Assembly (NCBI RefSeq): GCF_002150505.1
Contig: NZ_MSSV01000001.1
Location: 372,001 to 436,000 of the forward strand
Direction of reading: 5' to 3'
DNA length: 64,000 nt
Source of the DNA: Algoriphagus ratkowskyi
GTDB taxonomy: Bacteria; Bacteroidota; Bacteroidia; Cytophagales; Cyclobacteriaceae
Shown here: piece after piece, positions 50,034 through 51,840 of the stretch
Numbering within the stretch: position 1 is the first letter of the stretch
How the letters are laid out: each line of letters starts with the position of its first letter
The notes under the pieces: generated by a model
The model's input: only the letters and a program-made list of their open reading frames with translations
Databases searched by the model: none
What the model was told of the DNA's origin: nothing
Translations under genes and position numbers: made by a program

Positions 50034-50322
50034 GATCGTGCCGTTGGCACTCTATAAATATGAAAAAACTATCAAACCCAGAATTGCATTCTGGGCTTTT
50101 ATTGGCCTTGCCGTTGGCAAGGGTGCTCCTATATATAATAGATCAATAATTTAAAGTGGTAGCATAATAAATCCAAAACAACCGAAATCGCATGATAACA
50201 TTGTCTTACAGGGAATGCTTTTTTGCCAAGTTCAAAACCCATATCAGCCCCGAATACAGCGCAGCGAAATTCGGGGTTTTAGATCCACAAGTTTGATTTA
50301 CCAGAGTGCCAAGGGCACGATC
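50034..50322. repeat. Compound palindromic unit 1 (289 bp)
   Basis: Six hairpins in mirror order: A GATC-GTGCC-GTT-GGCAC (50034-50050), B CCCAGAAT..ATTCTGGG (50077-50095), C CCTTGCC-GTT-GGCAAGG (50106-50122), D TTTTGCC..CAAAA, degenerate (50221-50237), E CCCCGAAT..ATTCGGGG (50248-50276) and F GTGCC-AAG-GGCAC-GATC (50306-50322). A and F are inverted copies of each other with GATC at both outer ends; C and D also mirror each other. Confidence 0.85.
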
Positions 50323-50435
50323 CTCCTTCATATCAATTCGATCTCTATAAAAGCAAAGTTTTTCAGCAAAACAGAACAAAGTTTTCGGGCAGAGGTAAAT
50401 TGAAGATTGGTTAAGATTCCGCAAACGTGATTTTT
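50323..50435. repeat. Spacer repeat, copy 1
   Basis: 113 bases, nearly identical to 51441-51553. It contains TCATATCAATTCGATC and a segment rich in A between units. Together with a unit it makes a 402-base period. Confidence 0.8.
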
Positions 50436-50651
50436 GATCGTGCCGTTGGCAAGGGTACTCCTATATAATAGATCAATAATTTAAAGTGGTAGCATAATAA
50501 ATCATATACAATCCGAAATCACATGATAACATAGGCTTACATGGAATGCTTTTTTGCCAAGGGCAAAACCCATATCAGCCCCGAATACAGCGCAGCGAAA
50601 TTCGGGGTTTTAGATGCAAGTTTGATTTACCAGAGTGCCAAGGGCACGATC
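50436..50651. repeat. Compound palindromic unit 2, internally deleted (216 bp)
   Basis: It starts with GATCGTGCCGTTGGCAAGGG, a fusion of the left half of hairpin A and the right half of hairpin C, so A, B and C collapsed to one. The loss agrees with recombination between the shared TGCCGTTGGCA of A and C. The rest (intact D, E and F) matches unit 1. Confidence 0.8.
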
Positions 50652-50673
50652 AATAATATATTACCAATCTAAT

Positions 50674-51120
50674 TCAGTCCCATACATATTTTGTGTCGTA
50701 ATCAATTCCATACTCTTCCAAAAACTTGATGTATTCTTCTTGAAATGACATATGCTGATGATGTATTTCCTGATTTTGAATATACTTTTTGACAATTTCT
50801 AATTTTGATTGACTGACTGAAAATGCACCATATCCTTTTTGCCAATGGAATTCTTTTGGTCCAATTTCAGTCATTTTATTAGAACTCGGAATTTTAACCT
50901 TCTGAATCATATCTGCAATTGTCAAGGTCCGAGGGAGTGTACACAACCAATGGAGGTGATCAGGATTTATATAAATTTCTTCTGTGTAAATGCCAAGATT
51001 GAAAGCTACCGAAACTAGGTAGGCTTCAAGGGTTGGTTTGTTCTTCGGGGATACAAATGGTGTTCTATCCTTTGTAGAAAAAATAACATGTAAATATACT
51101 TTTGCGAGGGACTGTGGCAT
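50674..51120 (-). CDS. tnpA: IS200-like / REP-associated tyrosine transposase (RAYT)
   Basis: A 148-residue HUH-type transposase: start HVIFSTKDRTPF, the HUH pair His55 and His57 in NPDHLHWL, and the catalytic tyrosine Tyr113 in VKKYIQNQEIHHQHMSF, preceded by FHWQKGYGAFSVS, which marks the RAYT/IS200-like subgroup. It lies between compound palindromic units 2 and 3, with 22 and 31 bases of unique flank. RAYTs process palindromes of this general kind elsewhere; here the partnership is inferred from position. Confidence 0.92.
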   Translation of the reverse strand: MPQSLAKVYLHVIFSTKDRTPFVSPKNKPTLEAYLVSVAFNLGIYTEEIYINPDHLHWLCTLPRTLTIADMIQKVKIPSSNKMTEIGPKEFHWQKGYGAFSVSQSKLEIVKKYIQNQEIHHQHMSFQEEYIKFLEEYGIDYDTKYVWD

Positions 51121-51151
51121 GATCGTAAATATTATGGTTTAAAAAAACATG

Positions 51152-51440
51152 GATCGTGCCGTTGGCACTCTATAAATATAAGAAAACCGATTAAACCCAG
51201 AATTGCATTCTGGGCTTTTATTGGCCTTGCCGTTGGCAAGGGTTCGAATATTATTTATCTCGCTATTAAAAATTGGTGGTTTAAAAAAAACCAATAAAAA
51301 CAGGAATTGTATGAAAATAAGGATGTCGTTCGACGACCTTTTGCCAAGGGCAAAACCCATATTAGCCCCGAATACAGCGCAGCGAAATTCGGGGTTTTAG
51401 ATGCACAAGTTTGATTTACCAGAGTGCCAAGGGCACGATC
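51152..51440. repeat. Compound palindromic unit 3 with replaced core (289 bp)
   Basis: Outer hairpins A, B, C, D, E and F are as in unit 1, but the core between C and D is unrelated to that of units 1, 2 and 4. The total length is nonetheless again 289 bases. D is intact (TTTTGCCAAGGGCAAAA). Confidence 0.85.
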
Positions 51441-51553
51441 CCTTCATATCAATTCGATCTTTATAAAAGGAAAGTTTTTCAGCAAAACAGAACAAAGTTT
51501 TCCGGCAGAGGTAAATTGAAGATTGGTCAAGATTCCGCAAATGTTAAAATATG
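51441..51553. repeat. Spacer repeat, copy 2
   Basis: Same length as copy 1 (113 bases) and nearly the same sequence, between units 3 and 4. This gives the same 402-base period on both sides of the transposase. Confidence 0.8.
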
Positions 51554-51840
51554 GATCGTGCCGTTGGCACTCTATAAATATAAGAAAACCGAACAAACCC
51601 AGAATTGCATTCTGGGCTTTTATAGGCCTTGCCGTTAGTAAGAATGCTCCTATTTATAATAGATCAATAATTTAAAATGGTAGGAAAATAGTTTTAATAC
51701 TTTCCGAAATTTCTTGATGACATGGCCTTACATAGAATGCTCTTTTGCCAAGGGCAAAACCAATTAGCCCCGAATACAGCGCAGCGAAATTCGGGGTTTT
51801 GGATGTAAGTTTGATTTACCAAAGTGCCAAGGGCACGATC
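51554..51840. repeat. Compound palindromic unit 4 (287 bp)
   Basis: Order as in unit 1; hairpin C is degenerate (TTGCCGTTAGTAAG), while D, E and F are intact. The core resembles that of units 1 and 2. The unit ends in GTGCCAAGGGCACGATC at 51824-51840. Confidence 0.8.

Follow-up and report, generated by a model that had tools for sequence, protein, structure and literature searches.

A subclass-1.2 Y1 HUH transposase gene flanked by inverted three-hairpin modules in Algoriphagus: a probable REPtron-like system

Introduction

The ends of IS200/IS605 elements are subterminal hairpins that lie on the same strand. Of tnpA-REP genes it has been stated that evidence of mobility is lacking (PMC8266576), and the published TIRYTs, which have helix-turn-helix tails and GGGGWSAS repeats, were placed for the most part in subclass 2.1 (PMC3733652). 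For subclass 1.2 of TnpA-Y1, Quentin et al. 2018 give the REP entry as 'no' and describe members as generally without terminal secondary structure (PMC6006769). Our literature searches, which covered open-licence papers, turned up no account of repeats belonging to this subclass, and an unseen report is possible.

Here we analyse a 64,000-nucleotide stretch of the Algoriphagus ratkowskyi genome (the window; its coordinates are used below unless a contig is named), in which a gene of subclass-1.2 type lies among large, hairpin-rich repeat units.

Results

The transposase gene

The tnpA gene (50674..51120, minus strand) encodes a 148-aa Y1 HUH transposase of subclass-1.2 type with the motifs DHLH, WQ and YIQNQEIHH. 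The protein matches Pfam Y1_Tnp (E 7.4e-21) and scores 58.3 bits against NCBIfam IS200, just above the cut-off of 55, and 30.9 bits against REP_Tyr_transpos, far below the cut-off of 80. Its AF2 model (pLDDT 92.9), whose C-terminal part has only short helices (residues 126-136 and 143-146), has ISDra2 and IS608 TnpA as its best PDB folds, with E. coli TnpA-REP (4er8) weaker. A phmmer search of PDB with the single protein found nothing; a 49-sequence TnpA profile matches IS608 and ISDra2 TnpA there at about 1e-15, and its H55, H57, Y113, Q117 and H121 columns are invariant.

Among the traits of subclass 1.2 found in the protein are its length, DHLH with L instead of I/V, FHWQ and a conserved C-terminal stretch, and its Y motif, Y---Q--HH, recurs in every one of the nine full-length Y1 genes that the genome has. 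By motif, length and profile, the predicted protein is a member of TnpA-Y1 subclass 1.2, in class 1. The earlier note had called it a RAYT, a label that has to be given up: identity as a classical RAYT, or class 2 TnpA-REP, is ruled out by Y---Q in place of Y---NP and by the low REP_Tyr_transpos score, and the foot beside its repeats is TAYN-GATC, not the GT[AG]G of RAYTs. A plasmid search returned only three records spanning most of TnpA, the best from Persicobacter (41% identical) and Bernardetia (37%), and an Rfam search of the locus gave just sub-threshold chance matches.

Four compound units around the gene

Four related units flank tnpA, all on the plus strand: U1 (50034..50322, 289 bp), U2 (50436..50651, 216 bp), U3 (51152..51440, 289 bp) and U4 (51554..51840, 287 bp), with the gene situated between U2 and U3. 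Within each pair the start-to-start distance is 402 nt and the spacer 113 nt (50323..50435 and 51441..51553), exactly as the earlier note had laid them out. The two spacers are ~95% identical over 104 nt, so the local four-copy layout is probably in part a block duplication.

The outer hairpins have a 5-bp GTGCC/GGCAC stem with a 3-nt loop and adjoin the GATC that stands at both outer ends of each unit. That the outer ends, GATC-GTGCC-NNN-GGCAC, are inverted copies of each other holds everywhere except at the altered left end of U2. Inside them follow hairpin B (stem CCCAGAAT/ATTCTGGG), hairpin C (CCTTGCC/GGCAAGG), a variable middle, hairpin D (TTTTGCC/GGCAAAA) and hairpin E (CCCCGAAT/ATTCGGGG). 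The six hairpins once ascribed to every unit are all perfect in U3 only (A 51156-51168, B 51196-51214, C 51225-51241, D 51339-51355, E 51366-51394, F 51424-51436). U1 (A 50038-50050, B 50077-50095, C 50106-50122, E 50248-50276, F 50306-50318) has a broken D at 50221-50237 (TTTTGCCAAGTTCAAAA), and U4 (A 51558-51570, B 51598-51616, D 51743-51759, E 51768-51796, F 51824-51836) a degraded C at 51627-51642 (CCTTGCCGTTAGTAAG). U2 is a deleted version whose left end is an A/C fusion (50440-50454), most simply the product of a deletion between GCCGTTGGCA repeats, followed by D (50552-50568), E (50579-50607) and F (50635-50647). The description of a unit as a palindrome of palindromes needs the same trimming: B corresponds to E, and C to D, in where they lie and in type, yet their stem sequences are not the same, and B and E have loops of unequal length as well. 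The mirror symmetry is architectural, not literal.

As single-stranded DNA, U3 folds at -60.7 kcal/mol against -31.5 in shuffles (z = -7.6; none of 200 shuffles was as good), which answers favourably the folding check that had been proposed. Its halves, both annotated with covariance model R1, each fold into three separate hairpins: alpha, with GATC and hairpins A, B and C (51152..51241, plus strand; z = -4.8), and beta, with GATC and hairpins F', E' and D' (51339..51440, minus strand; z = -3.7).

A three-hairpin module with covarying stems and a conserved foot

The natural sub-unit is this half-unit of about 90-100 nt. Each unit consists of two such modules in inverted orientation, its left and right halves both fitting the plan of a GATC followed by three hairpins, and the half-unit is also present singly at other sites in the genome. 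An alignment of 42 distinct copies from the genus gives the order GATC, hairpin 1, CTCT, linker, hairpin 2, ~10 nt, hairpin 3. The sequences used for covariation were preselected for pairing, which inflates the 99.2% of paired cells in the named structure. Compensatory change is seen in 11 of 20 pairs, and 89 cells are changed on both sides of a stem, compared with 23.3 in shuffles (0/500 reach the observed value); sliding the stem partners abolishes the signal. One-sided (G-T) changes are few, about 5, which is what a need for pairing in DNA, or on both strands, would lead one to expect. The tetranucleotide in front of GATC, which played no part in copy selection, reads TAYN: T in 50/62 copies, A in 60/62, C or T in 59/62, then any base.

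Distribution in the genome and the genus

The genome of the window (G000; 4.98 Mb, 53 contigs) holds nine divergent full-length Y1 paralogues, and the one closest to the window gene, 78% identical, sits within its own unit array of the same architecture (C1:276580-280067). Searches of the genome contigs with model R1 gave 67 modules, which are spread over more than ten loci and concentrated at tnpA loci; none of the 43 modules checked lies in an ORF of at least 150 aa. Inverted pairs of REP-like palindromes are thus dispersed in intergenic DNA, as in REPINs and BIMEs. Complete units with GATC outward also stand isolated, with no tnpA (for example C22:64794-65088, L076), and at C50:35943-36239 the order is inside-out, module-spacer-module.

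The seven genomes of the genus that carry a tnpA at 60% identity or higher all have modules, as do 9 of the 29 others (Fisher p = 0.0014, a value that ignores kinship), and orphan modules are present in genomes lacking a close tnpA. In three genomes (G010, G033, G025) the same unit architecture, with compensated stems such as GCCCC/GGGGC, lies near 61-66% identical tnpA orthologues. Model R1 found no modules outside the genus in 58 genomes. The search of this genome and its relatives, which the earlier note had recommended, therefore revealed a dispersed unit family tied to the transposase lineage; the units are neither devoid of the transposase in all relatives nor unique to the window locus.

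Elsewhere in the same genome, other subclass-1.2 tnpA genes (L034, L035/L037, L038, L031/L032) are flanked by different hairpin repeat families of their own. Beside the L034 gene lie ~250-nt direct repeats with CCAGCCATttcaATGGCTGG, and hairpins CGATGGG/CCCATCG and AGCCCT/AGGGCT adjoin tnpA both at L035 and at L116, in a distant Bacteroidales MAG. In a ~356-nt tandem array at C6:110200-111450 (L078), the half-unit is fused to sequence of another kind, which bears a CTCGGGGT/ACCCCGAG hairpin.

Filled and empty sites

Comparisons of conserved gene neighbourhoods show gain or loss of units at defined intergenic sites, which of the two being something that a filled/empty comparison by itself does not polarise. 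(The gene names used here, PadR, PspC, PorV, MBL-fold and methionine gamma-lyase, were read from translations, not taken from database results.) The interval from PadR to PorV is 358 bp long and free of units in G000; in a second species, G017, it measures about 1.6 kb and contains unit-unit-tnpA-unit. No such unit-tnpA block lies at this site in G021, G019 or G009, so that the G017 block occupies a position that is empty in its relatives. At the site flanked by PspC and the MBL-fold gene the picture is the opposite, with the full window cluster in G000 and one unit in G017. Behind the methionine-gamma-lyase gene on C8, G000 carries two units and G017 a single one, and seven other species show none over the stretch shown, and a half-unit before lepA on C17 is found only in G000. 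Exact target junctions were not obtained from these comparisons.

Units within a MITE-like element

In G021, a dispersed MITE-like element of ~750 bp (contig C1, loci L223-L235) holds a complete six-hairpin unit; it has the terminal inverted repeat GGATCAGTC[C/T]TAAAAGTTGGGG, with 8-bp target duplications in several copies. Most of the aligned dispersed unit copies examined in this genome lie inside it, and with the 8-bp duplications this indicates that dispersal there is probably the work of another transposase. We had considered the G021 copies as clean proof of mobility and dropped them when alignment revealed the enclosing element and its duplications; they warn against attributing all dispersal to TnpA. 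At L224 and L226 a second MITE-like insert is nested within hairpin F.

Flanks of subclass-1.2 genes in other phyla

Proteins of subclass-1.2 type also occur beyond Bacteroidetes and Cyanobacteria, in Verrucomicrobia, Planctomycetes, Acidobacteria, Armatimonadetes, Chloroflexi and others (many of them from MAGs; L088-L165).

The kilobases upstream and downstream of the gene match each other at >50 bits at 39 of 67 subclass-1.2 loci in many phyla (23 inverted, 16 direct) and in 0 of 45 control windows elsewhere in the same loci. Upstream and downstream flanks of 250 nt match each other at >45 bits around 48 of 73 subclass-1.2 tnpA genes, compared with 1 of 146 other genes, and hairpin density at the flanks, which was also compared against shuffles, is 7.8 per kb compared with 1.6 in other intergenic DNA, about fivefold. 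In Verrucomicrobia, Planctomycetes and others there is one inverted end of ~60-150 nt on each side of tnpA. In several of them the end is, by eye, once more a series of three hairpins, the middle one C-rich and preceded by a TAG-like linker; outside Algoriphagus this three-hairpin claim is visual, and flank repeats and hairpin enrichment are measured. With modules at the window gene and matching flanks at most of the relatives, the subclass probably does not lack a REP-like partner as published. As that absence is an observed trait and not a definition, it calls for revision, not for exclusion of these proteins from subclass 1.2.

Discussion

We favour, at a probability of roughly 70%, a REPtron-like single-strand mobile system in which a subclass-1.2 Y1 HUH transposase is flanked by cognate ends made of three-hairpin modules. 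Cleavage and mobility are what we infer from the fold and catalytic motifs, the architecture of the ends, stem covariation, the conserved foot, dispersal, intergenic siting, filled and empty sites, and the hairpin-rich flanks seen across phyla. The cognate end would be the ~90-100-nt module, TAYN-GATC plus three hairpins, and two inverted ends would make up the 289-bp unit. When the region becomes single-stranded, as on the lagging strand, TnpA may bind the hairpin ends and nick at or beside the TAYN-GATC foot, using Tyr113 and an HUH metal site (His55/His57). It could then excise or copy the segment between two ends, either a gene-less unit or unit-tnpA-unit, which would be re-joined at another intergenic site, and recombination between copies could build local tandem arrays. 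As the ends are inverted copies, unlike the same-strand ends of IS200/IS605, such a system would have to follow another strand logic or make use of each strand. This point weighs against the reading, as do the orphan modules in genomes lacking a close tnpA and the MITE-borne copies of G021.

The alternative that comes nearest takes the mobile entity to be tnpA with a single three-hairpin module at either end, that is, a true insertion sequence with terminal inverted repeats, and the 289-bp unit to be the junction of neighbouring or decayed copies. The single inverted end on either side of tnpA in other phyla, the inside-out arrangement on C50 and the G017 block at a site empty in relatives all point this way; we nevertheless think it unlikely, if well worth keeping in mind, as isolated GATC-outward units such as L076 mean that the unit order itself has been dispersed, and the genome has just two close tnpA copies, unlike high-copy IS200. 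A passive repeat duplicated in tandem around an unrelated IS200-like gene would account for the equal 402-bp periods and the near-identical spacers (50323-50435 and 51441-51553). Local duplication does explain much of the window array and is the likely source of local copy number; as a full explanation, to which we give very little credence, it is contradicted by the many modules at other loci, by the paralogous tnpA that lies in the middle of an array of its own, and by orthologues in other species that have this architecture beside them.

Two further readings leave TnpA a minor part or none. The units might instead serve as transcription terminators between genes or act at the RNA level, in the manner of exapted REPs, and their association with tnpA would then be secondary; REP sequences have been given roles of this type (PMC8266576), hairpins B and E look like bidirectional terminators (a GC stem, then a short T run) and every checked copy is intergenic. 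We regard this as improbable, given very few one-sided changes of the G-U type against 89 double-sided ones, a conserved foot that lies outside the stems and placement on both sides of one gene family across phyla. Spread of the modules by DDE-type MITEs, with TnpA irrelevant to movement, fits most of the aligned G021 copies, and we rate its chances equally low: no such terminal repeats border the units inspected in G000 and G017, and modules are concentrated at tnpA loci.

The REPtron-like reading matters beyond this locus. It offers a likely DNA partner for a transposase subclass listed as having none, in many phyla rather than two, and the large, covarying multi-hairpin ends, together with filled and empty sites, bring the spread of REP-like elements within reach of tests in a second lineage, which stands near true insertion sequences. 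It is tempting, though on balance we lean slightly against it, to see subclass-1.2 Y1 transposases as a whole as single-strand mobile systems whose inverted three-hairpin ends are conserved in many phyla and whose strand logic would be unlike that of IS200/IS605 and REP, with a cleavable foot on both strands and a transposase gene that moves with its units.

Each of the described systems shares part of this design. Like TIRYTs and TIRtrons (PMC3733652), the locus has a Y1 gene between inverted repeats able to form dispersed families; GGGGWSAS terminal repeats are absent at the unit ends. With the subclass 1.1 transposases of IS200/IS605 (IS608, ISDra2) it shares the fold, the HUH and Y motifs and hairpin ends, but the protein has an extra HH and a C-terminal segment, the ends are inverted three-hairpin modules, the gene lacks near-identical multicopy spread and gene-less units predominate. 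REPtrons and REPIN-BIMEs with their class 2 TnpA-REP (subclass 2.2 in E. coli, for example) likewise have a Y1 HUH gene that is single and of low copy number, palindromes on its flanks with a conserved foot of four nucleotides, inverted palindrome pairs and dispersed intergenic copies. Here, however, the protein is of class 1 (Y---Q--HH, not Y---NP), the foot is TAYN-GATC, not GTAG, the gene-plus-units block is found at different positions in related species, and modules of three hairpins and ~90-100 nt, paired over ~289 nt, exceed the scale of classical REPs and REPINs, as the earlier note had observed. TnpA-Y1 subclass 1.2 as published (PMC6006769) has the same Y---Q--HH and WQ motifs, 148 aa, occurrence in Bacteroidetes, low copy number and divergent paralogues, to which our analysis adds modules flanking the gene, hairpin-rich repeated flanks at many members and a wider range of phyla.
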